28,928 bases of DNA, taken from positions 1-28,928 of IMG/VR virus record IMGVR_UViG_3300020457_000061; one strand, written 5' to 3'. The notes under the pieces are model-generated. The model ran no database searches, had not been told where the DNA came from, and was given only the letters and a program-made list of their open reading frames with translations. Both the position numbers and the translations under genes were made by a program. Positions 400 through 27,533 of the stretch are shown one piece after another; the first letter of the stretch is position 1; each line of letters begins with the position of its first letter. The stretch comes from a virus.

Positions 400-1775
400 C
401 TATTAGAAGAAGTGAAACAGGTGATGTTAGTGTAAAAGTTAATGTCTTCAGGAATGGTCAAAAACTTCAAAACTCTGATGGTAATGATGATATCTACGAT
501 TTCATTACAGGTATTGAGATTTTTGAAAGTGTTACTTCATCGACTTTAGAAGCAAAACTTCTTTTCAATGATGGTTCTGGATTTATAGGTGCCATGACTG
601 GATCTGAATTGTTCAAAATTACAATCAGAGGAACAATTCTTGATAGAGTTTATTATATGAGAGCATATGATATTGAAGCAAGAACAAGATTGAACATGGC
701 AGATTCATTTATTGTGAATTGTGCTAGTGATGAATTTTTCCAAAATGAAATTACTAATGTATTTGGAAATAGTCAAGTTGTATTTAATTCTACTTCATCG
801 TCTGAAATTGTAGAAAAAATTCTGAAGACAGATAACAGATATATTAAAACTCAAAAGAAAATTTATATTGAAGAATCTACAAACAAACAACAGTTTATAG
901 CAACAAATTGGAGACCATTTGACTGTATCTATTGGCTTGCACAAAGGTCAACACGAAAAGCAAGAAAGGGTGGTACACTTCAAAATGGATTTATTTTTTA
1001 TGAAAATGGTTTAGGTTTTAATTTTAAATCTATTGATAAAATCATTGATAATGTAAATGAACAAGACGAGACAAAAACTAATTTTGAAACTGGTAAAACT
1101 AAGTTGTACACATATGTGTATTCAACAAAAAGAACTGGTTCAGATGGAAGTGATCAATTTAAAATTGAATCCATAGTATTTCCAGAAGAAAGAGACTTCT
1201 TAACTGGATTACGTCATGGTGCTTGGGCAGGGTTTAGCATGGGGTTTGATCCTGTAACAGTCACACAATCCAAAATGGGATTAAGTACAGATATGTCAGT
1301 AGATGCTTACCGTTATGGTATATCTGCGTTGTGGCCAAAAATGTCACATCTAAATGAAAATCGGTCAGTCAATCCATTATCAGAGTTAGATGATACCATT
1401 AAGAATATTATTGACTATCCAAGACGAACAAGATATACTGCATTATCAAATCAAATCTTTGATCCAAAATTTATAGACAACCCTCAAAAAAATTACGAGG
1501 AATTGGTAGAACTTCAGGCATACCAATGGATGAGGATTGAATCTCTAAAAAATATTAAGTTGATGATTGTATTTCCTGGTAATCTTGATTTGTATGCGGG
1601 ATCTGGAATAAATGTGATTGTACCTGCGACATATAAGAGGAATGATTCCACAGATACAGATAGAAAATATAGTGGAAGATATGTTATTGGTGGGTTGACA
1701 CACAAGATTGTTGGCAGTACAATGCATACCGAAGCGTTATTAATGAAAGACTCTATACCAAGAAGATCTTCATAA
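396..1775 (+). CDS. gp27: Baseplate hub protein, T4 gp27-like
   Basis: This 459-residue protein resembles the T4 gp27 baseplate hub, the trimeric ring that joins the tail tube to the gp5 needle. Visible features are a beta-rich N-terminal domain (ITGIEIFESV near residue 40), a central NWRPFDCIYWLAQR segment near residue 170 typical of gp27-like hubs, and a C-terminal beta-rich domain ending in GGLTHKIVGSTMHTEALLMKD, a pattern common in hub proteins. Its length is somewhat above T4 gp27 (about 390 residues). The gene order, with a gp5-like gene four genes downstream, supports the call. The intervening metabolic genes are unusual, since in T4 these hub parts have only structural neighbours. The assignment is by motif and context. 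Confidence 0.75.
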   Translation: MTIRRSETGDVSVKVNVFRNGQKLQNSDGNDDIYDFITGIEIFESVTSSTLEAKLLFNDGSGFIGAMTGSELFKITIRGTILDRVYYMRAYDIEARTRLNMADSFIVNCASDEFFQNEITNVFGNSQVVFNSTSSSEIVEKILKTDNRYIKTQKKIYIEESTNKQQFIATNWRPFDCIYWLAQRSTRKARKGGTLQNGFIFYENGLGFNFKSIDKIIDNVNEQDETKTNFETGKTKLYTYVYSTKRTGSDGSDQFKIESIVFPEERDFLTGLRHGAWAGFSMGFDPVTVTQSKMGLSTDMSVDAYRYGISALWPKMSHLNENRSVNPLSELDDTIKNIIDYPRRTRYTALSNQIFDPKFIDNPQKNYEELVELQAYQWMRIESLKNIKLMIVFPGNLDLYAGSGINVIVPATYKRNDSTDTDRKYSGRYVIGGLTHKIVGSTMHTEALLMKDSIPRRSS

Positions 1776-1779
1776 TGCT

Positions 1780-1787
1780 CATAAATA
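1780..1787 (+). promoter_or_regulatory. Late promoter, T4-type (CATAAATA)
   Basis: CATAAATA lies just after the hub gene stop and 23 bases before the CP12 start. It differs by one base from the T4 late promoter consensus TATAAATA. The same element recurs upstream of several structural genes in this window. A strong Shine-Dalgarno, AAGGAGGT at 1797-1804, follows. Together they suggest that the auxiliary genes from CP12 onward are also expressed late. Confidence 0.6.
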
Positions 1788-1809
1788 CTATTGTATAAGG
1801 AGGTACTAA

Positions 1810-2037
1810 ATGCAAAGTATCGAAGCACACATCAAAAAGGATCAACAGATTCTGGATAATCCAGAAACAAATCCACAGATGCGTCGTCACATTGAAGGCG
1901 AACTACATGACCTTGAAGAGTATGTAGAGCATCATAAAGAAGAGATTGAAGCAGGTGATCATCACGATCCTACTTGCATTGAACTATTTTGTGATCAGCA
2001 TCCAGACGAACCAGAATGTTTAGTGTATGACGATTGA
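1810..2037 (+). CDS. cp12: CP12-like Calvin cycle inhibitor
   Basis: CP12 binds GAPDH and phosphoribulokinase and shuts down the Calvin cycle when its cysteines are oxidised. This 75-residue protein ends with the CP12 C-terminal signature: IELFCDQHPDEPECLVYDD, with C61 and C70 eight residues apart, an acidic loop and a terminal YDD. In the family this pair forms the disulfide loop that enters the GAPDH active site. The N-terminal cysteine pair of host CP12 is absent and the core AWD-VEEL motif is only loosely echoed by ELHDLEEYVE. An extra C56 is present. The length matches short CP12 proteins. A strong AAGGAGGT site lies 5 bases before the ATG, and the stop overlaps cpeT. In a phage, the known role is to divert host carbon flow toward the pentose phosphate pathway. 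Confidence 0.85.
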   Translation: MQSIEAHIKKDQQILDNPETNPQMRRHIEGELHDLEEYVEHHKEEIEAGDHHDPTCIELFCDQHPDEPECLVYDD

Positions 2038-2471
2038 TGTCAAATTTTTCATCATGGTTACTTGGAACTTGGTCTAATAGTCGTCAAGCACAATCATCTC
2101 CTACTTTGTACAAATCTGGATTTGTTAGATGGGAGAAAAGTGGTGAGTTTATAAATTCTATTCATTGGGACAGAAAGACACCTGATGACCCATATTTAAA
2201 AACTTACAAGAAATTAGTTGAAGTATCGGATAAAGAAGTTATTTTAGAACATTGGGGTGGAACCTACAGTGGGTTAAACCGTAATGAAGAATGTGATATG
2301 GTATTAAAATTTGATGGTACAGCATGGATGGGTAAGTTTGATACTGATACCATCCATGCTGAACTTGGTGTATATAAAAATAAACTCTTGATGAGAGACA
2401 GATTCTTAGACTCCAAAGGTAGGATGGTTTGGGGTGCAGATGAAATTTATAAGTACTTAAGAGTTGAATAG
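2037..2471 (+). CDS. cpeT: CpeT-like phycobiliprotein lyase
   Basis: Members of the CpeT/CpcT family attach bilin chromophores to phycobiliprotein cysteines. The N-terminus SSWLLGTWSNSRQA matches the family's W-x-x-G-x-(W/F)-SN-x-x-QA signature, followed by a conserved Pro. The C-terminus DRFLDSKGRMVWGADEIYKY matches the typical D-R-x-x-D-x-x-G-x-x-x-WG-x-x-x-x-Y/F ending. At 144 residues it is shorter than host CpeT (about 200), as known for phage versions. I chose ATG 2037, which overlaps the cp12 stop as TGATG, rather than a TTG codon one position earlier. Lying between cp12 and pcyA, it belongs to a photosynthesis-related cassette. The substrate protein and the attachment site cannot be read from the sequence. 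Confidence 0.8.
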   Translation: MSNFSSWLLGTWSNSRQAQSSPTLYKSGFVRWEKSGEFINSIHWDRKTPDDPYLKTYKKLVEVSDKEVILEHWGGTYSGLNRNEECDMVLKFDGTAWMGKFDTDTIHAELGVYKNKLLMRDRFLDSKGRMVWGADEIYKYLRVE

Positions 2472-2474
2472 ACT

Positions 2475-3023
2475 ATGAAAATACACCATCCATTTAAAGT
2501 TTCATTATTACACTATAGTGTACCTAACTGGTCTCACTATAAACCAATTTTGATGGCAAATCTGCCACCATATGAATTGGATGGTGATACAGTATCAACA
2601 GATTATGTTGATAAATCTAAATCAAAGTATTTTGATATCTTTGATGCGTTCATAGAACCAGTTCTAGAACAATTCAAAAAAGACGTTGGGCATGCCGCAT
2701 ACATTAGAAATGTATGGACACAGAGAGCAAGAAAAGGAGATCATCATTGCCCTCACAATCATGGATCAAATGGTTGGGCAGCAGTTTTATATGTTGACTA
2801 CGATCCTAACATACATGCTGCTACAACTTTTATAAGTCCCTTCACAGAGTTTTCTTCAGGGGATCACATGGATTTTACTCCTGATGTAAAGGAAGGAGAT
2901 ATTGTGTTCTTCCCTTCTCAACTTTTACATTATGCAAATCCAAACACTAGTGATAAAGAAAGAGTTATACTCTCATTTAACATGATGAGTATAAATGAAA
3001 TTGGTATCTTTGAGATGAAGTAA
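2475..3023 (+). CDS. 2OG-Fe(II) oxygenase family protein
   Basis: This 182-residue protein has the double-stranded beta-helix pattern of the putative 2OG-Fe(II) oxygenase family common in cyanophages. Likely metal ligands are in the HCPHNHG segment (H94 or H96), then H152 in SQLLHYANPN, with R163 (KERVILSFNM) as the likely 2-oxoglutarate contact. The classical HxD pair is not obvious; this subfamily often uses an H-x-H-like site. KEGDIVFFPSQLLH is the usual strand before the distal histidine. Such enzymes hydroxylate proteins, nucleic acids or small molecules; the substrate here is unknown. It starts 3 bases after cpeT and ends directly before pcyA, so it is co-transcribed with bilin genes. 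Confidence 0.75.
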   Translation: MKIHHPFKVSLLHYSVPNWSHYKPILMANLPPYELDGDTVSTDYVDKSKSKYFDIFDAFIEPVLEQFKKDVGHAAYIRNVWTQRARKGDHHCPHNHGSNGWAAVLYVDYDPNIHAATTFISPFTEFSSGDHMDFTPDVKEGDIVFFPSQLLHYANPNTSDKERVILSFNMMSINEIGIFEMK

Positions 3024-3740
3024 ATGGATTCTGGAAAGTATTTAAAATCATGGGTTCGACTTTCAATTGAAGTTGCCAACTACTTGAGAGAGGAACTAAA
3101 AAGTTTTCCTGATGTTACCCATATGGAAAACAAATATCCTATTGTGGAAAATGAGAACGTATTCATTATAAATGAGATGCATCAGAGTGATAAACTTAGA
3201 AAGATGCATTTAGAAACTGGATATACAGAAAATATTTCTATAATGCACTGTGTGTTGTATCCTGATCCTAATTATCCTATTCCCATATTTGGTGCTGATA
3301 TTGTAGAAACTCCTAATTCAGTTACCGCAGCAATAGTTGATATGTCACCTGTGTTTGGAACTCAAAGATATGTTGATGTATACAGAGATATATCATACAA
3401 ATATAAGTTTAAAGAAAATAGAGTGCTACCCTTGTGGACTGATGATGTTTTCTCACAAGGATGTAAGTTCATGCGTATCAGAACTGAAGAAGAAAGAGAT
3501 ATGTATATGAATCTGATTAAAGAATCCATTCAACTTTATAAAGGTATAGTAGAAAATTCTAAGTTTGATGAACAATGGATTCACACCATGAAAAGGATTG
3601 ATGATCAAATTTATTATTGTAAACAACAGAGAAAAAATAAAAAGACCGAAGCAGTTCTGAGTCAATGGTTTGATCCCCAGTGGGCAAAGGATTACATAAA
3701 TGAAATCCTCTTTGACACAAACGTAATAAATAAATCGTAA
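3024..3740 (+). CDS. pcyA: Phycocyanobilin:ferredoxin oxidoreductase (PcyA)
   Basis: PcyA reduces biliverdin to phycocyanobilin using ferredoxin. This 238-residue protein carries the family core: RKMHLETG (E64, corresponding to the proton-donating Glu76 of Synechocystis PcyA), IMHCVLYPDP (H75, matching His88) and FGADIVETPNSVTAAIVDMSP (D92, matching Asp105). The spacing from H75 to D92 is the same 17 residues as in the host enzyme, and from E64 to H75 one residue shorter. This pattern fits PcyA better than PebS, whose phage form reads FGMDLM in the same place. The gene begins immediately after the oxygenase stop (TAAATG). No heme oxygenase gene is in the window, so biliverdin would come from the host or from elsewhere in the genome. 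Confidence 0.88.
   Translation: MDSGKYLKSWVRLSIEVANYLREELKSFPDVTHMENKYPIVENENVFIINEMHQSDKLRKMHLETGYTENISIMHCVLYPDPNYPIPIFGADIVETPNSVTAAIVDMSPVFGTQRYVDVYRDISYKYKFKENRVLPLWTDDVFSQGCKFMRIRTEEERDMYMNLIKESIQLYKGIVENSKFDEQWIHTMKRIDDQIYYCKQQRKNKKTEAVLSQWFDPQWAKDYINEILFDTNVINKS
3725..3732 (+). promoter_or_regulatory. Late promoter, T4-type (AATAAATA)
   Basis: AATAAATA inside the last codons of pcyA is one base from TATAAATA and lies 24 bases before the gp5-like start. A short Shine-Dalgarno (AAGGA at 3739-3743) follows. It would let the needle gene be transcribed independently of the metabolic cassette. Confidence 0.5.
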
Positions 3741-3755
3741 GGATATAAGTATACA

Positions 3756-6305
3756 ATGCCGTCAATTGAAGGAATTATCAACGAACCTAGTACCAATTTT
3801 GTTGGTAAAGACGGATTTTTCTGGTGGGTTGGTGAGGTTGAAGATAATGAAGACCCTATGGAGTTGGGTAGGGTCAAAGTTCGTGTGCTCGGATATTACA
3901 CTAATGTAAGAGGTGGTACTACAGCAGATTTGCCTACTGAAAATCTTCCATGGGCAACAGTGCTACAACATACATGTCAATCAGGAAATGATGGTCAGGG
4001 TGAAAGTTCTGGTCAACTGCAACCTGGTGCTATTGTTATGGGATTCTTCATGGATGGGGAGTCTGCTCAAATGCCAATAGTTATTGGTGTTATGAGAGTT
4101 AAAAAATCTGCAGAGTCACAGGAGAAGAAAGTGTTTGCCTTTACAGGTGAGAACATGGAACCTGGTGTTGGTCCTAATATGACTACAATGACACCTGGCA
4201 ATCCTAACTCAAGTATGGCAAGTACAAAAGAAGATGGATATCGTAGGGCAAATATTGCTAACACTGTAGATCTTCCTAACCAAAAGGGTGAGAATCAGAG
4301 TGCTGCTATTTCTGGTGTAGGTTCTCCTAATAATCAGGGAACTGTAATGAATGGTAGTGCTGGTAATCCAATCAAACCAAGAAATTCAATTCAACCTAAT
4401 CCTGCTGCTAATGGTGTTGGTGGTCCTTGGAAAACTTTAGAGTATAAGTTATCGTATCTTGTAGAAGATCTTGCAGACCATGCTGGTTCTTTGATTCGTG
4501 CTGAAGATGGTGAGTTTTTAGAAGTTGTTACTGGTAAGTTAGTCACTGCAAAAGAACTTACTGTAAAACTTCAGAACTTCTTGAGTAGTGTATTTGCTCA
4601 GGTAGTTGCTGCAATGCGTCAGGCACTTGCTAACCTTGCAGAACAACTAGAGTTAATTAACATTCTTGGTGGTGCAACTGGTGTGCCATTTGTTGTTTTT
4701 ACTGCAATTCAAGCAGCAGTCAAAACAATTCTTGCCTCTCTTTGTAATATTGATAGTAGATTACTTAGTTTTATCTCAGATCCTGTAGGAAGTGTTGTTG
4801 GAATTCTTGAAAACTTCCTTGATGGGTTGATTGATAAAGCAACCATGGTTATGCAAGGTGTTCAGGCAGCAATCGATGGTGTTATCTGCCAAGTTCAAAG
4901 ACTTCTTGATCAGGTGATGGGTGTTGTTGATACTGTATCATCAATTGTAGATGGTATTGGTAAAGCAAAAGAAATTATTGAGGCATGGAAAGCAGGTAGT
5001 GAAATTTTTGAAGCAGGAACAGACCTTCTTAAGAAAGGTATCACTAGCATTACTGGATTGATTCAATTGTTCATTAAGTTTGCTGGTAGTAATTGTGATC
5101 GTAAACCTGATGGTGGTAAAGATACTGTAGGTTGGTATCCTTTATTTGGTGTTACTCATTGTACTCCTGAAGAACTTGCAGAAATTAACGCAATTAGAGG
5201 ACAGAGTAGAGGAACTTGTGGTGGTGATGCAGGATCTGGTGGTCTTTTTGATAATATTTTCAATGAAGCAGATCCATATTTAACTGCTGCTAAAACTTTC
5301 TTAGATGGTTCTTATGAACTGTTTGTTGGAACTCCTGGTCGTCAGGCAAGTGTAAAGAAAAATGCTAGTGGAACAACATCAACATCTATATGTTGTAATC
5401 AGAATGAACATGCAAAGTATGTTGCTGCTAAAGCAATTCGTGAAGCAAATCCAGATATATCTGATGAAGAATTACAAACACAAGTAGATGCTTCCGTAAA
5501 AGCAGCAAATAGTGGTAAGGGTGATACTGGTTCTTTAGTTGCTGACCATACATCATATGCTGGTAACTATACAGAAGAAACTCATGGTGACCAGTGTAAA
5601 CAAATTGATGGTGATCATGTTGTAAACGTCGATGGTGATTATTTCTTAAAGATTACAGGTGATTGTCATATTGAAGTTGGTGGTGGTTTCTTCTTTGATG
5701 CTGAGGGTGCTCCTAAAGTTGTAAATAAAAAAGGTGAGAAGAAAAACGAAAAAGTTCAAAAACATACAATCAAATTTGGATCTGATGTTGACATCAATAC
5801 TGTTGGTGCTAAGTTTGAAGTTCAAGGTGCAGAGTTTAATGTAGGATCGGTTTCTAGTAAATTTACAAGCAGTGTGTTTGAATCTAGCGGTGGTCAGATG
5901 GCACTATCTGCAGGAGAAGTTATTATTAGTGGAGATAATTCTATTGATCTTATTACACCTTCATTAATTGAGATGATCAATACACCACCTTCACCTCTTC
6001 CCAAAGCAATTACAGGTATTCGTAGAATGGTTGGTGGTTCTGTTGAAACAGTTATGGTACCTGGTCTTTCTGCTGATGCTGTTCCTAGATATATTATTGC
6101 TAACCCACTTGGACCATACTCACTAACATGTGGTACAACAGGATATAACTGTAATGTTCTTACTGGAATGTACAATGTTAATGCTGTAGCAGGTGCGTTG
6201 ATAATGAACGCTAGTCTTGCGTGTACAATAACCTGTGGTACTGGTATGCTTCTCGAAGCAAAAGCGGCAGTCTTGATCCTTGGTAAGACAGTCTTCATCA
6301 ACTAA
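3756..6305 (+). CDS. gp5: Baseplate central spike protein, gp5-like, lacking an obvious lysozyme domain
   Basis: The N-terminus (about residues 19-116) is the OB-fold of gp5/VgrG-type spikes: FFWWVGEVEDNEDPMELGRV, LPWATVLQHT and QPGAIVMGFFMDGESAQMPI are characteristic. The C-terminus from about residue 610 is repetitive and beta-rich (IDGDHVVNVDGDYFLKITGD), as expected for the triple-stranded needle helix. The middle holds long Ala/Leu/Val-rich amphipathic helices (about 220-430) and Cys-containing loops, not the T4-type lysozyme with its E-D-T catalytic set. At 849 residues it is much longer than T4 gp5 (575). It should assemble on the gp27-like hub and puncture the outer membrane; peptidoglycan cleavage would need another protein. 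Assigned by fold motifs and gene order. Confidence 0.8.
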   Translation: MPSIEGIINEPSTNFVGKDGFFWWVGEVEDNEDPMELGRVKVRVLGYYTNVRGGTTADLPTENLPWATVLQHTCQSGNDGQGESSGQLQPGAIVMGFFMDGESAQMPIVIGVMRVKKSAESQEKKVFAFTGENMEPGVGPNMTTMTPGNPNSSMASTKEDGYRRANIANTVDLPNQKGENQSAAISGVGSPNNQGTVMNGSAGNPIKPRNSIQPNPAANGVGGPWKTLEYKLSYLVEDLADHAGSLIRAEDGEFLEVVTGKLVTAKELTVKLQNFLSSVFAQVVAAMRQALANLAEQLELINILGGATGVPFVVFTAIQAAVKTILASLCNIDSRLLSFISDPVGSVVGILENFLDGLIDKATMVMQGVQAAIDGVICQVQRLLDQVMGVVDTVSSIVDGIGKAKEIIEAWKAGSEIFEAGTDLLKKGITSITGLIQLFIKFAGSNCDRKPDGGKDTVGWYPLFGVTHCTPEELAEINAIRGQSRGTCGGDAGSGGLFDNIFNEADPYLTAAKTFLDGSYELFVGTPGRQASVKKNASGTTSTSICCNQNEHAKYVAAKAIREANPDISDEELQTQVDASVKAANSGKGDTGSLVADHTSYAGNYTEETHGDQCKQIDGDHVVNVDGDYFLKITGDCHIEVGGGFFFDAEGAPKVVNKKGEKKNEKVQKHTIKFGSDVDINTVGAKFEVQGAEFNVGSVSSKFTSSVFESSGGQMALSAGEVIISGDNSIDLITPSLIEMINTPPSPLPKAITGIRRMVGGSVETVMVPGLSADAVPRYIIANPLGPYSLTCGTTGYNCNVLTGMYNVNAVAGALIMNASLACTITCGTGMLLEAKAAVLILGKTVFIN

Positions 6306-6308
6306 GTC

Positions 6309-6337
6309 TTGACAGAGCACCCTCTGACTGCTATACT
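6309..6337 (+). promoter_or_regulatory. Sigma70-type early promoter
   Basis: TTGACA (6309-6314), a 17-base spacer and TATACT (6332-6337) form a near-perfect bacterial vegetative promoter. It starts four bases after the gp5-like stop, so it marks the switch from a late structural transcript to a host-polymerase transcript. A Shine-Dalgarno, AAGGAG at 6350-6355, precedes the GTG start at 6362. The spacer end and -10 share ACTGCTATA with the promoter at 9137. Confidence 0.75.
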
Positions 6338-6361
6338 AGATATTGTAGTAAGGAGTCACAC

Positions 6362-6562
6362 GTGGAATCTAAACTAGCACACGTTTTTGTCAACTTCTCA
6401 AAACGCTCAATTAATATTGTGGATGATGAGGGGTATGACAAGACTGTAAACTGGAAATGGGATAAAGAAGGTTCTGATGGTTTTTCTGAAACTGTCAGAG
6501 ACATTGAAGATATCCTTGATCCTGATATGATTACGTATTGTTTTGCTGAGTTACAAGAATGA
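6362..6562 (+). CDS. Small acidic hypothetical protein (GTG start)
   Basis: A 66-residue protein with no recognised domain. It begins with GTG, supported by AAGGAG 6-11 bases upstream and by a consensus promoter at 6309-6337, so it is the first gene of the early-type transcript. The sequence has alternating charged and hydrophobic residues (NFSKRSINIVDDEGYDKTV, WKWDKEG) and an acidic C-terminal helix (ETVRDIEDILDPDM), suggesting a small globular protein. The stop overlaps the next start (ATGA). The function is unknown; small early genes in T4-like phages often encode host-takeover factors, but nothing here shows that directly. Confidence 0.75.
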   Translation: MESKLAHVFVNFSKRSINIVDDEGYDKTVNWKWDKEGSDGFSETVRDIEDILDPDMITYCFAELQE

Positions 6563-6798
6563 TTGGACCTATTGGAGTTACACTGCGTCAGGCAGAAGAT
6601 CACTTTGATTTTATTATGGATCTAACAGAATCACAACGTGTCTGTTGGAAAATTACTCGTAACGATGGCAAATCTGCTATGCTTGTTCCTGTAAATGAAA
6701 TTCCTCATGTATCAGAGGAAATACAAACTCAGGTAGAAGAATTTCAAAAACAATTTTTGTCTGATGGAACAACATCTAGTTCACCGCCAAGTATTTGA
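6559..6798 (+). CDS. Hypothetical protein, 79 aa
   Basis: No family recognised. It starts within the ATGA overlap with the previous gene and its 3' end overlaps the next gene by 35 bases in another frame. The first 60 residues look like a small alpha/beta fold (HFDFIMDLTESQRVCWKITR, AMLVPVNEIP), followed by an amphipathic, Gln/Glu-rich helix and a Ser/Pro tail encoded in the overlap region. Coupled translation makes co-production with its neighbours likely. Confidence 0.7.
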   Translation: MIGPIGVTLRQAEDHFDFIMDLTESQRVCWKITRNDGKSAMLVPVNEIPHVSEEIQTQVEEFQKQFLSDGTTSSSPPSI

Positions 6799-7318
6799 TA
6801 ACTTTCTTGATGACGAAACTTTCGATTACATCTCTAAAGTTGTAATGGGAACTTGGCATGATAGACAAATTCTGTATCAACTACAATCAAACGTCGCTGA
6901 AGAAGGAGAAGAGATGCCACTATGGAATTGGATGGGTATATCAATGATTTACTCAGAAGATGAAGTAAGACATCCATTTTATGATGAAATACGAGACAAG
7001 GTTTTGCCTCTAATTAAAGAAAAAGTATACAATTACAAATCAATAATTAGAATCAAGGCAAATTTTTATCCGTGGACTCAAGAAATCAAGCACCATAGTT
7101 ATCATACCGATTTTGATTGGCAAAATGTTGGTGCAGTTTTATCAATGAATACTTGTGACGGTTACACAGAATTTGAGTATGATATGCCATATCTCAAACA
7201 AAAACGTATAAAATCTGTTGCAAATAGGTTAGTCGTCTTTGATGCTCAAAATTCACATAGATCAACAACAACTACTACCGATTTTGGTAGATTTAACATA
7301 AACTTTAATTTTTTATGA
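6764..7318 (+). CDS. 2OG-Fe(II) oxygenase family protein
   Basis: This 184-residue protein has the facial-triad layout of 2OG-Fe(II) dioxygenases: HTD at H114-D116 (HHSYHTDFDW), a distal H165 (DAQNSHRS) and R176 (FGRFNINFNF) for 2-oxoglutarate. The strand RLVVFDAQNSH is typical of phage prolyl-hydroxylase-like proteins. The N-terminus VFDNFLDDETFDYI is the usual opening of the family, so the ATG at 6764 adds only about nine extra residues; a non-ATG start slightly downstream is possible. The substrate is unknown. It overlaps the upstream gene by 35 bases and the next by ATGA, so it is part of the coupled chain. It is the second of five such enzymes here. Confidence 0.78.
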   Translation: MEQHLVHRQVFDNFLDDETFDYISKVVMGTWHDRQILYQLQSNVAEEGEEMPLWNWMGISMIYSEDEVRHPFYDEIRDKVLPLIKEKVYNYKSIIRIKANFYPWTQEIKHHSYHTDFDWQNVGAVLSMNTCDGYTEFEYDMPYLKQKRIKSVANRLVVFDAQNSHRSTTTTTDFGRFNINFNFL

Positions 7319-8517: not shown

Positions 8518-9165
8518 ATGGATATCACTAGCAAAAATGAAGAGTTTCCTTATATTTTGATTGATAATTTCTACAATCAATCAGAGTTAGGAGAAATTTG
8601 GGATGAGTTGGATTACATGTGCAATCCTAGAAGGATGCAGAGAGCATCAGTTGAAAATGGTGCAGCATGGGATGGGTTTGATGAACATGGTAATAAAAGA
8701 AAACTGAAGACTAACTGGACTATGTGGTTAGATCATTTCTTTGGTCCTAATAGATTTGCATCTAGTATTCTTGAGGTAAACAGGAAATTACTTAAAAACT
8801 CACATATATTTGAAAACCATCCTCATTGGGCAATTAATGATGTTAATGCATACAAGCAAGATTTTACGCAAATTGCATACTATGAGGATAGTGATGAATA
8901 TCTAGAGCATAGAGATTCTGCAAGGTTAACTTGCCTTACATGGTTTTACAGAGAACCAAAAAAATTTACTGGTGGCACTTTATACTTTCCTTTGTGGGGC
9001 ACTGAAATTGAATGTAAAAATAACAGAGTCATATGTTTTCCATCGATGATTCCTCATGGGGTAACTAAAGTTAGTATGGATAAAAATGATATGGGTAAAA
9101 AACTTGGAAGATTTGTTATGACACAATTTTTGATGCTTGACACAGACAGTGTAACTGCTATATAA
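8518..9165 (+). CDS. 2OG-Fe(II) oxygenase family protein
   Basis: This 215-residue protein carries a full dioxygenase triad: HRD (H131, D133) in YLEHRDSARLTCLTWFYRE, H180 in FPSMIPHGVTKV and R198 in GRFVMTQFLM. The segment KKFTGGTLYFPLWG is the usual strand where the family shows GG-x-L-x-F. The N-terminal FPYILIDNFY is the typical family opening, which supports the ATG at 8518. It begins 17 bases after the tRNA. A consensus promoter is embedded in its last codons. The substrate is unknown; related proteins include prolyl hydroxylases. Confidence 0.82.
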   Translation: MDITSKNEEFPYILIDNFYNQSELGEIWDELDYMCNPRRMQRASVENGAAWDGFDEHGNKRKLKTNWTMWLDHFFGPNRFASSILEVNRKLLKNSHIFENHPHWAINDVNAYKQDFTQIAYYEDSDEYLEHRDSARLTCLTWFYREPKKFTGGTLYFPLWGTEIECKNNRVICFPSMIPHGVTKVSMDKNDMGKKLGRFVMTQFLMLDTDSVTAI

Positions 9166-9235: not shown

Positions 9236-9859
9236 ATGAGCATTGGTCTTACAAAATTAAATCATCCCACGTTAGGTGAAATTATCTTTCACAGGTGGCG
9301 TGGTCATGTATCTTCACATAAGCAAGATATCATTGAACATCATTTATCTCATCAAAACTTTAAGTGGGGATTTACCAAGTCAACTATTGTTGAAGGAACT
9401 AATCCAAAAGAATTTGAAAAATTTGATGACATATCTATTCTTGCACATCCTTTAATTGTAGATAACAAAGTTACTTCTGATTATTTTGGTGGGTTGATTG
9501 AAAATATTGAGATAGAAGATCTTATTAACAGACACCATTTGTCTGGAGAAATTCTTCGTGCTCAGGTCAACCTATTCATTAAACGTGATAAAATTGTAAA
9601 TCCATGTCCTCATATTGACGTTAGAAAAGTTCCTCATTTCAGTATGCTTTACTATGTGAATGATGCTGATGGAGATACAATTTTTTATGACAAATCTGAA
9701 CACAATTCTAATGAAGAACTTGGTGAAATGAAAGAGTGGCGAAGGGAATCGCCAGAGAGGGGAGATATTTTAATTTTTGATGGTAGAATTTATCACAGTC
9801 CATCTTGTCCTGTTGAATCTACCCATAGAATTAGTGTTAACTTTGATATGCTAAAATGA
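9236..9859 (+). CDS. 2OG-Fe(II) oxygenase family protein
   Basis: This 207-residue protein has the dioxygenase triad HID (H126, D128) in PCPHIDVRKVPHFSMLYYV, H187 in FDGRIYHSPSCP and R198 in THRISVNFDM. GDILIFDGRIYHSP is the standard distal strand of phage 2OG oxygenases with a prolyl-hydroxylase-like fold. The N-terminal 100 residues are His-rich and variable. No Shine-Dalgarno is obvious before the ATG; the leader instead carries the folded element at 9172-9227, which may control it. The stop overlaps the next start (ATGA). The substrate is unknown. Confidence 0.82.
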   Translation: MSIGLTKLNHPTLGEIIFHRWRGHVSSHKQDIIEHHLSHQNFKWGFTKSTIVEGTNPKEFEKFDDISILAHPLIVDNKVTSDYFGGLIENIEIEDLINRHHLSGEILRAQVNLFIKRDKIVNPCPHIDVRKVPHFSMLYYVNDADGDTIFYDKSEHNSNEELGEMKEWRRESPERGDILIFDGRIYHSPSCPVESTHRISVNFDMLK

Positions 9860-10409: not shown

Positions 10410-10641
10410 AAAGACTAGAATTGATAAGAAACCAGTATTTACTAAAGTTAAGTCTGGTGATCTATGGGAATTGGGTAATGGTAACGGCAATATAAAGAAT
10501 ACAATGCCTTGGTATCTTCATCCAGTTGATAAAGATACATTTAATAGGTCATGGTTTAGAGATTATGATGATGCATGTAAACAAATTACAAGATTAAAAT
10601 TAAGACCTGAACAATACACTCTAACAAAATATAATGGATGA
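10228..10641 (+). CDS. Basic Ser/Thr-rich protein with folded C-terminus, overlapping the previous gene
   Basis: A 137-residue frame. The N-terminal 60 residues (MSKTTKTVRSRSSGTKTTKT onward) are basic, Thr/Ser-rich and encoded wholly within the previous gene. The C-terminal 70 residues (VFTKVKSGDLWELGNGNGN, MPWYLHPVDKDTFNRSWFRD) look like a normal globular domain and have no competing frame. No family recognised. The start could instead be further downstream, but no ATG occurs between the overlap and VFTK, so either the long form is real or a rarer start codon is used. The basic, disordered N-terminus suggests nucleic-acid binding; that is inference. The stop overlaps the next gene. Confidence 0.65.
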   Translation: MSKTTKTVRSRSSGTKTTKTKVSSTTGQKKTSRGSSVSVQSVKTQKNLEKNLKNLTTKKVRKTRIDKKPVFTKVKSGDLWELGNGNGNIKNTMPWYLHPVDKDTFNRSWFRDYDDACKQITRLKLRPEQYTLTKYNG

Positions 10642-11233
10642 AGGATTTCCCGACAAGAGAGTTTATTACACTCCTACAAAATTGCCAGAGACTCTTATAG
10701 AGTCAATGAAAGAATATTGTGACCAATTAGAATATCAAGATGGAGAAGTTTTTGGTCTAAAAGAAAATGATGAGGCGTTTGTACGATTGGATACTAGGAG
10801 ATCTAAGGTTGCTTGGATCAACTGGGATGAATGGATTCCTGGTATCATGCACAGTATGATGATTTCTGCAAACGAATGTTATTTTAAATATGATCTAAGA
10901 CATTTTAAAGATAAAATACAATCGACTGTTTATAATGGTGGAGGAGAGCATAAAGATTTTTATGGTTGGCATGTAGATGGTGGGAGAACACATATTATTG
11001 AAGGAGTAGAAATGGAAAGAAAGTTATCCATTTCATTACTTCTTAGCGATCCTGATGAATATGACGGTGGTGAATTGGAATTTAGATATTATGGTGATAA
11101 TTATTCTTTTGTTAAACCCGATGCGGGAACTGGGGTAATCTTTCCATCTTGGTTACCTCATAGAGTTCATCCTGTTAAGTCTGGTGTAAGAAGATCTCTG
11201 GTTGCTTGGATGGATGGTCCTTGTTTTAAATAA
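10634..11233 (+). CDS. 2OG-Fe(II) oxygenase, PKHD-type prolyl-hydroxylase-like
   Basis: The most canonical of the five: DFYGWHVDGG gives the HxD pair (H113, D115), LSISLLLSDPDEYDGGELEF gives the GGEL-x-F strand, and FPSWLPHRVHPVKSGVRRSL gives the distal H176 and the 2-oxoglutarate arginine (R186 or R187), followed by VAWMDGP. This set matches PKHD-type hydroxylases in which the last segment reads R-x-SLV-x-W-x-x-GP. At 199 residues it is the size of a single catalytic domain. It overlaps the previous gene by 8 bases. The substrate is unknown. Confidence 0.88.
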   Translation: MDEGFPDKRVYYTPTKLPETLIESMKEYCDQLEYQDGEVFGLKENDEAFVRLDTRRSKVAWINWDEWIPGIMHSMMISANECYFKYDLRHFKDKIQSTVYNGGGEHKDFYGWHVDGGRTHIIEGVEMERKLSISLLLSDPDEYDGGELEFRYYGDNYSFVKPDAGTGVIFPSWLPHRVHPVKSGVRRSLVAWMDGPCFK

Positions 11234-22228: not shown

Positions 22229-23428
22229 ATGACAACAAAAGAACCTAACGTAGTAGAAGACTACGAAAATCTTAATTTACTTTTTGGTGTAGATTTTACT
22301 GCACACGAAATCAATGAAAATCTTCTATTCAATAGTGAGTTATTGAATCGTTGCCGTAAAGAATGTCAACCGATTGATAAATTGGTTGTTGCCTATGGTG
22401 GCAAGATGGTTACGAATGTATTGGAGTTAATTGATATTAATACAGTACATCCAGCAGGTAAAGAGATAAAGAACAATGTGACTAATGAAGTTTTACCTAA
22501 AGGATTTCAAATTCGTGTAGATGTTAATATCAATGAAAAACAAAAGAATAATATTCTTAACGATATTTGGGATGGATATTGGAATCCTAGTAGACCTGCA
22601 ATGATACTGTTTCGTTTACCTAAAGAGTATCAATATACTGATAAAGATGGTAACCGAGTAGTCTGGGGTATTGTTGATGGGTCACATCGTTTTGCTGCTG
22701 CGGGTGATGCTAACCAAGAAAGTGTTATCACTTGGTTGATTGACATGGAAATTAGTAAAATTCGTAAGTTTGCTAATGCTGAACTAAACAGAGTTGACTG
22801 TCCCCAATTAGGAAGAAGTCCTGAAGATGTTGCTGCAGCAATTTGTAACGATATTTTGGATGAAGAATCCGATATCTATACAAAACTTGAAAATGCAGAG
22901 GATGGAGAAAAAGATAAGATTTTGCGTGATGAGATAAGGACTTATCATTATAGTCATCACAAAGAGATTGATGCTATTCTTCGTAAGATTCAACATAATC
23001 CTAACGTAGTTGTTGATCGTAAACAGTATGGTTCAGATCAAATGAAGAACTATATTGCAGAACATGTAATCAACTGGAGTAAAACTAGTGAGGATTACCA
23101 TGATTATGTTAGTGATAAAGGTGTAAGGATTATTGTTAAACAAGGACAAGGTGAGAGTCACATAACTGTTGCACATCATATATGTAAGTTGCAGAGCAGT
23201 AATAAACCTATCACTGTTGCGTTCACAGTTGATAAAGCACGAAAATTAACCAAAGAAAATGCAGAGGCAGAAAGGCGACAATTTATAAACAGAGTAAATG
23301 AAACTATTAAGGAAATTTATAAAGCAGGAAAACTAAGGTACGAGGATGGGACATTTATAAATCCTAGTTGGGTTTGTTTCCCTGAACTTGCTGATGAATT
23401 TGATGATGGTCTAATCACTATAGTGTGA
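22229..23428 (+). CDS. ParB/sulfiredoxin-fold protein
   Basis: A 399-residue protein. Residues 124-175 hold a ParB-like core: MILFRLPKEYQ, then VVWGIVDGSHRFAAAGDANQ with the GSHR motif at 151-154 and a following hydrophobic strand, where ParB-family proteins bind nucleotide (CTPase/nuclease or regulatory fold). A long charged helical C-terminal part (about 190-399) has no recognised domain. The protein is far from plasmid-partition ParB and more like the ParB-like domains found with methyltransferases and restriction-related genes in phages. It is followed by a terminator and then by a nuclease and two DNA methyltransferases. The role is unknown; DNA recognition or transcription control in that set is inference. 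Confidence 0.7.
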   Translation: MTTKEPNVVEDYENLNLLFGVDFTAHEINENLLFNSELLNRCRKECQPIDKLVVAYGGKMVTNVLELIDINTVHPAGKEIKNNVTNEVLPKGFQIRVDVNINEKQKNNILNDIWDGYWNPSRPAMILFRLPKEYQYTDKDGNRVVWGIVDGSHRFAAAGDANQESVITWLIDMEISKIRKFANAELNRVDCPQLGRSPEDVAAAICNDILDEESDIYTKLENAEDGEKDKILRDEIRTYHYSHHKEIDAILRKIQHNPNVVVDRKQYGSDQMKNYIAEHVINWSKTSEDYHDYVSDKGVRIIVKQGQGESHITVAHHICKLQSSNKPITVAFTVDKARKLTKENAEAERRQFINRVNETIKEIYKAGKLRYEDGTFINPSWVCFPELADEFDDGLITIV

Positions 23429-23444
23429 CAATCGAACAACCTAC

Positions 23445-23477
23445 ACAGCACTCTACACAAGGGTGCTGTTTTAGTTT
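23445..23477 (+). terminator. Rho-independent terminator
   Basis: A 10-bp stem ACAGCACTCT / AGGGTGCTGT (one G-U pair) with a 5-base loop (23455-23459) is followed by TTTTAGTTT. It separates the ParB-like gene from the nuclease/methyltransferase genes. A TATATT (23477-23482) right after it could serve as the -10 of the next transcript. Confidence 0.75.
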
Positions 23478-23504
23478 ATATTATTAACATCTAAACAAAA
23501 CACA

Positions 23505-24041
23505 ATGTTTGAATCAATCTTCTCTACTGGCACGTTACGCAACTACATTGACTCTAACGTACAAGATCCTTGGGAAGATACTCCGTTCAAGGGTTATGTT
23601 TTTATGTCACCAAAACAAAAAGGTGAATTTGGAGAGAGATTTGTATCATACTATATGCTAATTGCTGACCATGCTGTAAAACGTGCAGAGACATCAACTG
23701 CAGGTCACGATAGAATAATTGATGGTATAAAAACAGAGATTAAATTCTCACTTGCCACTCGTAACAAGAAGGGTGGGGTGAATAAAGATAAATTTATTAT
23801 CAATCATGTTTCTGTAGGTAAAGACTGGGAGAGACTCATTTTCTGTGGTATCAATCCTAATGAAAAAGATGCTCGCATTGTGTTTATTACTAAAGAAGAT
23901 TTTGAAGCACACCTCAAGAGTGATGATTGTTTATTCAATGTTCAACAAGGTGGTAAATCTATTGGTAATGATGACTACATTTGCACAAAAGTCAATCTTC
24001 TGCTAGAATGTGATTTCGTGAAGGATATTTCTGAATGGTAA
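23505..24041 (+). CDS. PD-(D/E)XK-type endonuclease candidate
   Basis: A 178-residue protein with a restriction-endonuclease-like core: E44 in GEFGERFVSYY, D69 in TAGHDRIIDG, and the E-x-K pair E78/K80 in IKTEIKFS, followed by strands typical of the fold (KFIINHVSVGKDWERLIFCG, RIVFITKEDF). The D-X8-E-x-K spacing matches the catalytic site of the superfamily. The size fits a small restriction enzyme. It starts just after a terminator and lies four bases before a DNA methyltransferase, as in restriction-modification units. No specific recognition site can be inferred. An A/C-rich leader without Shine-Dalgarno precedes the ATG. Confidence 0.72.
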   Translation: MFESIFSTGTLRNYIDSNVQDPWEDTPFKGYVFMSPKQKGEFGERFVSYYMLIADHAVKRAETSTAGHDRIIDGIKTEIKFSLATRNKKGGVNKDKFIINHVSVGKDWERLIFCGINPNEKDARIVFITKEDFEAHLKSDDCLFNVQQGGKSIGNDDYICTKVNLLLECDFVKDISEW

Positions 24042-24045
24042 ATTT

Positions 24046-24780
24046 ATGACTAGTTTATTGCTCGGTGATTGTTTGGATTTGTTACCTACAATTGCAGATG
24101 ATTCAGTTGATATGGTGTTGGTAGATTTACCTTATGGTACAACTGCATGTAAGTGGGATAGTATTATCCCATTAGATAAACTATGGAAAGAATATAATAG
24201 AGTATGTAAAGAGGATGCTGCAATGGTGTTTACTGCTGCTCAACCATTTACTACTGTCCTAGCATCATCTAATATTTCTAATTTTAAATACGAATGGATA
24301 TGGGAAAAACCTCAAGGAACTAATCCCATGAATGCCAAAGTTATGCCATTAAAATCACATGAGAATATATTGGTATTCTATAGAAAGAAACCAACATATA
24401 ACCCTCAAATGTGGTATTCAACTCCTTACAGTGGATTTAAATCTGATACTGCAAAGATTGGTGAAGTTTATGGTGAAGCACAATCTAGACACAGAGACAA
24501 TCCTGAAGGATCACGCTATCCTAAAACTGTATTAAAGTATAAGCAAGAAAAGGGATTGCATCCTACACAAAAACCCGTAGGGTTGATGGAATATTTAATC
24601 AAGACATACACCAATAAAGGTGAAACAGTCCTTGATAATACTATGGGAAGTGGTACAACTGGAGTTGCATGCGTTAATACAGATAGAAACTTTATAGGGA
24701 TAGAAAACGATGAAAAGTATTACAACATAGCAAAAGATCGCATAGGATCTTTAAGTAACCCTCTTACAGAATTATTTTAA
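24046..24780 (+). CDS. DNA methyltransferase (beta-type, DLPY)
   Basis: A 244-residue SAM-dependent DNA methyltransferase. The catalytic motif IV is VLVDLPYG (DLPY, residues 27-30, a variant of DPPY), the HPTQKP motif is at 173-178, and the SAM-binding motif I is DNTMGSGTT (residues 198-206). Motif order IV, then target region, then X and I is that of the beta group, often N6-adenine. The target-recognition segment lies at about residues 90-165. The stop overlaps the second methyltransferase start (TAATG), so they are co-translated. Confidence 0.9.
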   Translation: MTSLLLGDCLDLLPTIADDSVDMVLVDLPYGTTACKWDSIIPLDKLWKEYNRVCKEDAAMVFTAAQPFTTVLASSNISNFKYEWIWEKPQGTNPMNAKVMPLKSHENILVFYRKKPTYNPQMWYSTPYSGFKSDTAKIGEVYGEAQSRHRDNPEGSRYPKTVLKYKQEKGLHPTQKPVGLMEYLIKTYTNKGETVLDNTMGSGTTGVACVNTDRNFIGIENDEKYYNIAKDRIGSLSNPLTELF

Positions 24781-25739
24781 TGAGAGACACAATTCTATTC
24801 GGTGACTGCAGAGACACCTTAAAACAATTTGATGAACAGGCAAGAATGTGTGTAACATCACCACCTTACTATGGTCTAAGAGACTATGGTGGGGAAGACT
24901 CACAAATAGGACAAGAGCAAAGTCCTGAAGAGTTTATTGATGAGTTAGTTAAAGTATTTCGAGAAGTAAGAAATATACTTACTGATGATGGAACTTTATG
25001 GGTCAATATAGGAGACTCTTATTATAATTATAGAAGTGATGGTAATTACCCAAAACAAACAGTAAGTAAAACTAGACAAGATTTACCTACTAAAACACCT
25101 GTTAGAGGGAATAAATTAAAAGGATTAAAGAGTAAAGATTTAATTGGTATACCTTGGATGTTGGCATTTGCATTAAGGAAAGATGGATGGTATTTAAGAC
25201 AAGATATTATCTGGCATAAACCTAATCCAATGCCTGAAAGTGTGAGAGATAGATGTACTAAATCCCATGAATATATCTTCCTATTGAGTAAGAATAAGAA
25301 CTATTATTATGACAATGAAGCAATTAAAGAACAAGCAAAAGACTGGGGTACTAGAGATCGTAGTAAAGGGAAGTATCATAATCCTGGCACTGGTTTATCC
25401 CCTCATACTGGGTTAACTAAGTCTTACGAAAAGAAGAATAAAAGATCAGTATGGACAGTAAACAAGAAACCGTATAAGGGTGCCCACTTCGCTACATATC
25501 CACCTGAACTAATTGAACCTTGTATCCTCTCAGGAAGCGAGAGGGGTGACATTATACTAGATCCATTCATGGGATCGGGAACAACTGCTGCAGTAGCAAA
25601 ATCACTAGGTAGAGACTATATTGGATGCGAGTTGCATGAAAATTATGGTGACCTGATTAAGAAGAGAGTAAGTGAGTATCATGTACCAGTTGAAGAAGTG
25701 GCACACAATGGACTGACACACCTTTTGAATGATGTATAA
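24780..25739 (+). CDS. DNA methyltransferase (TSPPY type)
   Basis: A 319-residue DNA methyltransferase with motif IV VTSPPYYGLRDYG (TSPPY at 26-30), a pattern used by N4-cytosine and some N6-adenine enzymes, an IIWHKPNPMPESVRDRCTKS segment with SHEYIFLLSK, and motif I ILDPFMGSGTT (about 259-269). The target region is probably at residues 180-240. The sequence differs clearly from the methyltransferase upstream, so the two likely modify different sites or strands. Base or position specificity cannot be settled from sequence alone. The last 11 bases overlap the next frame. Confidence 0.9.
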   Translation: MRDTILFGDCRDTLKQFDEQARMCVTSPPYYGLRDYGGEDSQIGQEQSPEEFIDELVKVFREVRNILTDDGTLWVNIGDSYYNYRSDGNYPKQTVSKTRQDLPTKTPVRGNKLKGLKSKDLIGIPWMLAFALRKDGWYLRQDIIWHKPNPMPESVRDRCTKSHEYIFLLSKNKNYYYDNEAIKEQAKDWGTRDRSKGKYHNPGTGLSPHTGLTKSYEKKNKRSVWTVNKKPYKGAHFATYPPELIEPCILSGSERGDIILDPFMGSGTTAAVAKSLGRDYIGCELHENYGDLIKKRVSEYHVPVEEVAHNGLTHLLNDV

Positions 25740-26230: not shown

Positions 26231-26256
26231 AAACCCCTTGACACTAGGGGTTTTTT
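26231..26256 (+). terminator. Rho-independent terminator
   Basis: The 8-bp stem AAACCCCT / AGGGGTTT with a 7-base loop (26239-26245) runs into TTTTTT (26251-26256). It lies 17 bases after the upstream stop and separates that gene from the helicase. A TGACTGT/ACAGTCA inverted repeat (26203-26219) precedes it. Confidence 0.88.
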
Positions 26257-26288: not shown

Positions 26289-27533
26289 ATGAACTTGAGA
26301 CCACATCAGCAAAGAGCATACGACAAGATGACCACAGAAAAGTCAGGTCAAATCATCGTGCCTACTGGTGGTGGTAAAACTTATATTATGATTGCAGATT
26401 GCAAGAGGTTGGTAACAACAACTCCACGCAGTCCTCAGACTATTGTTGTAGTTGCACCACGCATATTGCTTGCTAATCAGTTATCTAACGAGTTTGAATC
26501 AGAGATCAAAAATTGCAAGATTGCCCACGTTCACAGTGGTGAAACTCATCACTTCAGCACAACTAAAAGCATTGAGTTGACACACTGGAACAGCATCAAT
26601 CCACAGTATGATAAGTTAATCTTTACTACCTATCATTCACTCAACAGAGTATTAGATAGCATGGTAAATATTGACAGAATATATTTTGATGAAGCACACA
26701 ATAGCACTGGTAAGTCATTCTTTGAGCAGATCAAAAGAGTTGCTGCCAGTGGTATTGAGAGATTTTTCTTTACTGCTACACCACGCATTTCACGTTCTAA
26801 GCACAATGTAAGTGCAGAGAGAGGCATGAATAATGCTCAGGTATATGGTAACATACTAGAGCAAACTGACGCTAAAGAGTTGATTGATAGCGGTTCTATC
26901 TTGTATCCCAAAGTTATACCATTTGAGACAGACAGAGAGCGTACCAGACAGAATGCACATGAAGTTGATTCTGACAACTTAAAGGACATACTTACAAACA
27001 TTACTGACAACAATCCAAAGGTAATTGTGAGTGCTCCAACAACAAGAATACTCTGGAATATGCTCTCACAAACTGATATTCAGTCATGGTTATTTGAGCG
27101 TGATTATAACATCATGCACATCACATCTAAGCATGGTGCTATTATCAATGGTACAAAAGTTGGTAGAGAAGAGTTCTTCAATACTCTCACAGAGTGGGGT
27201 AAAGATGATGCTAAGAAGTTTGTAATATTCCACTATTCTATACTATCAGAGGGTATCAATGTTCCTGGTTTGACTCATTCAATTATGCTTAGAAACTTGC
27301 CTACAATTGAAATGGCACAAACAATTGGTAGAGTTATCAGGATTCATCAGCAAGATGCAAGTGACATGAAATCAGGCAAGATTCCTGTTGGTCAGTTCAA
27401 CTTGTATCGTAAAAAGCATGGTCAGATCGTGGTGCCTATGACTGGTAAGTATGGTAAGAGAATCGCAGACAGACTTCAGTCTGTTGTGTCATACATCTTT
27501 ATAGAGGGTGTCCCACCTCTAGCATACGTTTAG
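26289..27533 (+). CDS. SF2 DEAD/DEAH-box helicase
   Basis: A 414-residue superfamily 2 helicase: Walker A PTGGGKT (25-31), VVVAPRILLANQ (motif Ia), Walker B FDEAHN (133-138, DEAH), motif III FTATPR (161-166), motif V SEGINVP (320-326) and motif VI QTIGRVIR (344-351). The overall look is that of restriction-helicase-like proteins (DEAD/DEAH family of type III/UvsW-like), and UvsW of T4 is the nearest functional analogue, though it is longer (about 500 residues). It probably unwinds branched DNA or RNA during replication or repair. It begins after a strong terminator and lacks a clear Shine-Dalgarno. Confidence 0.85.
   Translation: MNLRPHQQRAYDKMTTEKSGQIIVPTGGGKTYIMIADCKRLVTTTPRSPQTIVVVAPRILLANQLSNEFESEIKNCKIAHVHSGETHHFSTTKSIELTHWNSINPQYDKLIFTTYHSLNRVLDSMVNIDRIYFDEAHNSTGKSFFEQIKRVAASGIERFFFTATPRISRSKHNVSAERGMNNAQVYGNILEQTDAKELIDSGSILYPKVIPFETDRERTRQNAHEVDSDNLKDILTNITDNNPKVIVSAPTTRILWNMLSQTDIQSWLFERDYNIMHITSKHGAIINGTKVGREEFFNTLTEWGKDDAKKFVIFHYSILSEGINVPGLTHSIMLRNLPTIEMAQTIGRVIRIHQQDASDMKSGKIPVGQFNLYRKKHGQIVVPMTGKYGKRIADRLQSVVSYIFIEGVPPLAYV

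Follow-up and report, generated by a model that had tools for sequence, protein, structure and literature searches.

The window analysed here is a 28,928-base IMG/VR virus contig (IMGVR_UViG_3300020457_000061), and the named phage closest to it is Prochlorococcus phage P-SSM7 (Kyanoviridae). It carries genes for a ParB-like protein (ParB), a small nuclease (NUC) and two DNA methyltransferases (MT1 and MT2) in one block, which raises the question of whether a T4-like cyanophage encodes its own restriction-modification system and which of the four genes belong to it. The open reading frames (ORFs), terminator and motifs described in the initial annotation were re-derived from the window sequence and found as stated, and none of the four ORFs, which all lie on the + strand, is interrupted. 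Our analysis indicates that NUC and MT1 are very probably a Type II restriction-modification pair of T4-like cyanophages that cuts unmodified TCGA and from which the methyltransferase has repeatedly been lost in site-free genomes. The pair is laid out as follows:

23505 to 24041, + strand: NUC, predicted Type II restriction endonuclease with predicted target TCGA, 178 amino acids (PHROG 6927, T4-GC 685)
23709 to 23744, + strand: NUC catalytic motif D69-X8-E78-X-K80, invariant in 45 relatives
24046 to 24780, + strand: MT1, beta-class N6/N4 DNA methyltransferase, predicted cognate for TCGA, 244 amino acids, DLPYG motif (PF01555, 1e-31)

NUC had been assigned to the PD-(D/E)XK nucleases from its motif, and structure prediction bore this out. 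The AlphaFold2 model (predicted local distance difference test score, pLDDT, 90.6; predicted template modelling score, pTM, 0.85) found only PD-(D/E)XK proteins among its best Foldseek matches in the PDB, which were I-Ssp6803I at the top, NhoI and Eco15I, with DpnI, EcoRV and NaeI lower down. Both the fold and the D...E-X-K active site of the superfamily are present, and the model allows NUC to be classed as a PD-(D/E)XK nuclease with high confidence; a restriction-endonuclease fold with intact catalytic residues is also what a Type II enzyme should have. By sequence, NUC matches PHROG 6927, a family of "unknown function" (E = 7e-91), and the PADLOC REase_II profile PDLC03515 (3.5e-8), which all 45 relatives match as well (best 1e-27). 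No credible sequence relative of NUC is present in the PDB sequence set. MT1 and MT2 score 111 and 205 bits against PF01555 (cut-off, 26.7), and in MT1 motif IV (DLPY at residue 27) precedes motif I (TMGSGTTG at residue 199), the order of the beta class. The characterized lactococcal phage methyltransferases yielded nothing transferable on the specificity of MT1.

Relatives of NUC, ParB, MT1 and, later, NUCX were gathered from IMG/VR, and pairing was counted at the 80 closest MT1 loci. NUC lies directly upstream of MT1 at 68 of them and NUCX, a different protein of ~194 amino acids in the NUC slot, at the remaining 12; no MT1 was an orphan, and the adjacent methyltransferase expected of a Type II system is thus conserved as a pair at all 80. 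In most loci, the nuclease and MT1 genes overlap by a few bases. The recurrence of the NUC+MT1 pair in dozens of contigs means that the pairing is not due to chance, and the initial suggestion of a phage-borne restriction-modification unit made of a nuclease and a methyltransferase holds for these two genes. Profile comparison revealed no similarity between NUC and NUCX, although one NUCX member matches another REase_II profile weakly. Neither Pfam nor NCBIfam gives a family name to either protein, and no relatives of either were found in the bacterial genome contigs searched; the plasmid collection gave a single weak match to NUC, in Sinorhizobium. Contig L164 and P-SSM7 share a cassette of ParB, a candidate nuclease, MT1, MT2 and a helicase in which the candidate is NUCX or NUC, with an additional oxygenase gene between ParB and NUC in P-SSM7. 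Every close NUCX relative on a long enough contig also carries MT1. One methyltransferase placed beside two unrelated candidate nucleases looks like a restriction-modification module after nuclease exchange.

The initial annotation went further and joined ParB, NUC, MT1 and MT2 in one possible system, with ParB as a DNA-binding or nucleoside triphosphate-dependent partner; in its strongest form, the proposal would be an integrated four-gene system that requires ParB. Three more features are involved in this proposal:

22229 to 23428, + strand: ParB-like protein, 399 amino acids, DGSHRF motif, putative accessory
23445 to 23469, + strand: intrinsic-terminator-like hairpin in the gap between ParB and NUC, 10 pairs with a T-rich tail (z = -2.9)
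24780 to 25739, + strand: MT2, second beta-class DNA methyltransferase, 319 amino acids, TSPPY motif (T4-GC 38; PF01555, 2e-60)

We consider a four-gene system unlikely. ParB was found in 14 IMG/VR contigs, and in the 10 that extend past it NUC or NUCX is always directly downstream; the one-base overlap of the MT1 and MT2 ORFs would also suit joint action. However, ParB is present at only 10 of the 80 MT1 loci, so that most NUC+MT1 pairs do without it, and MT2 directly follows MT1 at only 4. MT2 is also common in cyanophages that lack NUC, such as P-SSM2 and P-TIM40, and is not specific to the cassette. The phage may mark its genome in two ways through MT1 and MT2, as the initial annotation proposed. 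The expected co-occurrence in relatives therefore fails for the full set and stands for the core pair, while the only link found between ParB and the nuclease is adjacency, across a terminator. As judged from gene order, the functional unit is NUC+MT1 (or NUCX+MT1), not four genes. ParB is possibly a regulator or an accessory factor. Its low-confidence model (pLDDT 56) matched ParB, Noc, KorB and sulfiredoxin (Srx) in Foldseek (E = 1e-4), and none of the family library searches names it. Apart from these loci, L059 (828 to 2684) has a distant ParB relative (33% identity) that is not near NUC and is immediately followed by a different methyltransferase, a hint that ParB proteins of this type may accompany methyltransferases in general.

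NUC also occurs without an adjacent MT1, in many contigs and in S-SSM4, S-SSM6b, ACG-2014f and the IMG/VR record G005; whole-record searches of S-SSM4, ACG-2014f and G005 found no MT1 orthologue. A nuclease without its methyltransferase ought to damage the phage that carries it if the phage genome contains the target, and the target was therefore sought by counting palindromic tetramers in each genome, with counts given below as observed/expected under a trinucleotide Markov expectation. TCGA was missing or nearly so in S-SSM4 (0/327), S-SSM6b (0/309) and G005 (3/261). In 34 further contigs with NUC only, TCGA (19/390) ranked first in depletion among 136 tetramers, and 28 of these contigs (236 kb) have no TCGA at all. 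TCGA was first proposed from the data of S-SSM4, G005 and the contigs, and S-SSM6b, which was fetched afterwards as a test, agreed with the proposal. With both NUC and MT1 present, TCGA is kept, as in P-SSM7 (259/339), G009 (74/99), G011 (45/117), G012 (19/101) and the window (25/43). The genomes thus indicate indirectly that NUC and MT1 may share one short recognition site, TCGA being absent with NUC alone, ACG-2014f excepted, and kept with the pair.

As a control, we used 80 cyanophage loci (988 kb) for which the sole selection criterion was a structural-type gene of the window. All of them contain TCGA; their total is 1592/2087, a density of ~1.6 per kb, and the ratio per locus ranges from 0.45 to 1.04 among loci with at least eight expected sites. 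The excess of TCGA-free contigs among those with NUC only (28/34 versus 0/80) gives a Fisher p value of 4e-21. Because the contigs are related, the comparison of clusters at 90% identity is safer, in which 7 of 10 NUC-only clusters and 3 of 27 NUC+MT1 clusters are TCGA-free (p = 0.001). The tree requires at least three changes of MT1 state on well-supported branches. The median ratio of nonsynonymous to synonymous substitution rates of NUC is 0.104 with MT1 and 0.115 without it, and this strong purifying selection in contigs lacking MT1 shows that NUC is not a relic there. Scans of hexamers had given no clear target, since palindrome avoidance is general in cyanophages, and the signal came only at tetramers split by genome. 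CCGG was considered as the NUC target and rejected, since it is also missing from most NUC-free cyanophages.

The same logic could be followed in a divergent clade of NUC proteins, NUC2 (~35% identical), which is found in S-ShM2, S-SSM2, S-RIM14, S-BM3 and contigs L101 and L102. Here, the missing tetramer is TTAA, the target of the Type IIP enzyme MseI, with counts of 0/586 in S-ShM2, 0/242 in S-SSM2, 0/182 in S-RIM14 and 0/134 in G013 (L101), and TCGA is normal in all four; the pattern was first seen in S-ShM2, and S-SSM2 and S-RIM14 were then retrieved to test it. S-BM3 and G015 (L103) also encode MT1b, which is another type of methyltransferase (TDPPYF motif, 69% identical between the two), and in both TTAA is kept (76/552 and 31/189). 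MT1b directly follows the NUC2-like gene in L103 and L034. Within a single nuclease family, NUC and NUC2 thus each follow a different tetramer and a different methyltransferase. L034, which contains both TCGA and TTAA, has two pairs, NUC2-like+MT1b (TTAA type) and NUC+MT1 (TCGA type), at 1700 to 3087 and 6001 to 7271, and a third methyltransferase at 4309 to 5208. As a separate observation, distant NUCX relatives (30 to 32% identity) occur in L351 to L353 and L355 with no MT1 in the locus; TTAA is low in three of these four loci (7 to 9 versus 56 expected) and TCGA is reduced in all four.

Site loss of this kind could also be caused by restriction in the host cyanobacteria, with NUC as an unrelated nuclease carried along. 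That selection other than NUC exists is clear from the absence of CCGG and the scarcity of RGCY in cyanophages as a group, regardless of NUC. However, S-ShM2, S-SSM2 and S-TIM4 have Synechococcus WH8102 as a common host, and the first two, which have NUC2, are TTAA-free, whereas S-TIM4, which has no NUC, retains the tetramer (486/534). As phages of one host differ, host restriction is not the cause of this loss. Moreover, the missing tetramer, be it TCGA or TTAA, follows the nuclease clade in several separate lineages and persists in genomes that have the methyltransferase, and we regard host restriction as a very unlikely explanation.

It could further be supposed that NUC is a free-standing homing endonuclease spreading between phages, with a fold like that of I-Ssp6803I. 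This enzyme does top the Foldseek list, and the position of NUC varies between phages, at times without a partner gene. However, a homing enzyme, whose target is long, would not clear a tetramer from an entire genome, and neither the conserved pairing with MT1 nor the exchange of NUC and NUCX beside it is expected of a homing gene. In the window, NUC is paired with MT1 and does not lie inside another gene. The genome-wide loss of a tetramer and this placement make a homing endonuclease highly improbable, and a restriction-modification pair remains our preferred interpretation.

Several observations weigh against it. ACG-2014f has NUC and no MT1, and its TCGA is normal (335/415). This genome carries three other methyltransferase genes, which, or a broader DNA modification, possibly protect it; alternatively, the target of its NUC may have changed, its branch being long in the tree. 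Six of the 34 NUC-only contigs hold 2 to 6 TCGA, which in L032, L083 and L086 are clustered near one contig end. Conversely, 5 of 53 NUC+MT1 contigs are TCGA-free. G014, which has NUC2, contains 37 TTAA, and no methyltransferase was seen in this partial contig. P-TIM68 has only 11 TCGA without having NUC, a poverty due to the rarity of TCG and CGA as such in this genome. Finally, most of the cyanophages tested, NUC carriers and non-carriers alike, have no or almost no CCGG, and site loss must therefore have other causes too.

A second depletion was noticed on the side. In nearly all of the cyanophages examined, RGCY words (AGCT, AGCC/GGCT and GGCC) show a strong depletion that is independent of NUC, and the window itself has no AGCT where 101 are expected (both strands). 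ACG-2014f is the one exception, with AGCT and AGCC near normal. This CviJI-type pattern suggests that another nuclease acts on these phages.

Fold, catalytic motif, pairing, nuclease exchange, purifying selection and the match between site loss and nuclease clade come from computation; that NUC cuts, which base is methylated, in what order the changes took place and what NUC acts on in nature are inferred. NUC would cut unmodified TCGA, and MT1 would methylate the TCGA of the phage genome so that its own NUC does not cut it. During infection, NUC would then break up the chromosome of the host and any phage DNA that is unmethylated; at the control density of TCGA, ~290 sites are expected in a rival genome of ~180 kb. 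In several lineages, TCGA would have been purged and MT1 lost, leaving a cutter with nothing to cut in its owner. The sites were presumably purged before MT1 was lost, and NUC+MT1 contigs that are poor in TCGA or free of it (5/53 with none; G012 with 19/101) fit such an intermediate stage. Most relatives lacking MT1 have erased TCGA, which suggests that NUC is an active weapon against the DNA of the host or of rival viruses. By analogy, its main target is possibly the host chromosome, as proposed for chloroviruses (PMC7019647), or rival phages, in line with a proposal made for marseilleviruses (PMC7253447). On the broadest scale, it is rather likely that lytic cyanophages wield restriction nucleases with two interchangeable immunities, in which the sites are either methylated or all deleted, the methyltransferase then being losable, and that NUC and NUCX have been swapped and the target shifted between TCGA and TTAA within one family.

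Outside the four genes, the following features lie downstream:

26231 to 26253, + strand: intrinsic-terminator-like hairpin downstream of MT2, closing the block
26289 to 27533, + strand: superfamily 2 helicase (T4-GC 36; PF04851/PF00270), a frequent neighbour outside the cassette assignment

The T4-GC 36 helicase also adjoins the solitary NUC in S-SSM4 and S-ShM2. Elsewhere in the window, at 2475 to 3023, 6764 to 7318, 8518 to 9165, 9236 to 9859 and 10634 to 11233, are small proteins that by eye resemble 2-oxoglutarate- and Fe(II)-dependent oxygenases.

The NUC2 protein of S-BM3 is already annotated as "restriction endonuclease," and the suspicion of a restriction enzyme is therefore not new. 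The present analysis adds the pairing with a methyltransferase, the exchange of the nuclease beside MT1, a predicted target for each of the two clades and the methyltransferase-less forms in site-free genomes. We found no paper on restriction-modification systems of T4-like cyanophages in a search that lay mostly outside the subscription literature. We know of no other virus with the self-immunity that a site-free genome carrying a lone restriction nuclease would provide, and the literature searched contained no such case. The analysis points to a complete system that many marine cyanophages carry; its nuclease family, PHROG 6927, is listed under "unknown function," and genomes alone suffice to predict the target of the system. 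The breakdown of host DNA and the exclusion of rivals by cyanophages thereby become directly testable with the cultured phages P-SSM7, S-SSM4 and S-ShM2.

Among known enzymes, I-Ssp6803I, NhoI and Eco15I have folds like that of NUC at ~15% identity; the first is a homing enzyme, and the other two have been solved with methylated target DNA. The predicted NUC target TCGA is that of the Type IIP enzyme TaqI (PMC5587805). Complete restriction-modification systems have been called nearly absent in phages (PMC10734518). NrS-3, a prokaryotic virus of Nitratiruptor, has a complete Type II pair (R.Nph3I) that has been demonstrated in vitro (PMC10734518), but it is a temperate phage and its site is RGATCY, whereas the pairs described here belong to T4-like cyanophages, are predicted to act on TCGA or TTAA, and have many relatives and methyltransferase-less forms. 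The marseillevirus GATC system (mel_015/mel_016) is likewise a complete virus-borne pair, able to cut related viruses that lack it; however, it belongs to an amoeba virus, recognizes GATC and does not degrade host DNA (PMC7253447). In the chloroviruses (PBCV-1 and relatives), the nuclease also adjoins its methyltransferase, targets are short (2 to 4 bp) and the nucleases are thought to degrade host DNA (PMC7019647), but the host is eukaryotic and the nuclease is packaged in the virion. For chloroviruses, methyltransferases without nucleases are described (PMC7019647), whereas the cyanophages have the opposite arrangement, nucleases without a methyltransferase in site-free genomes.

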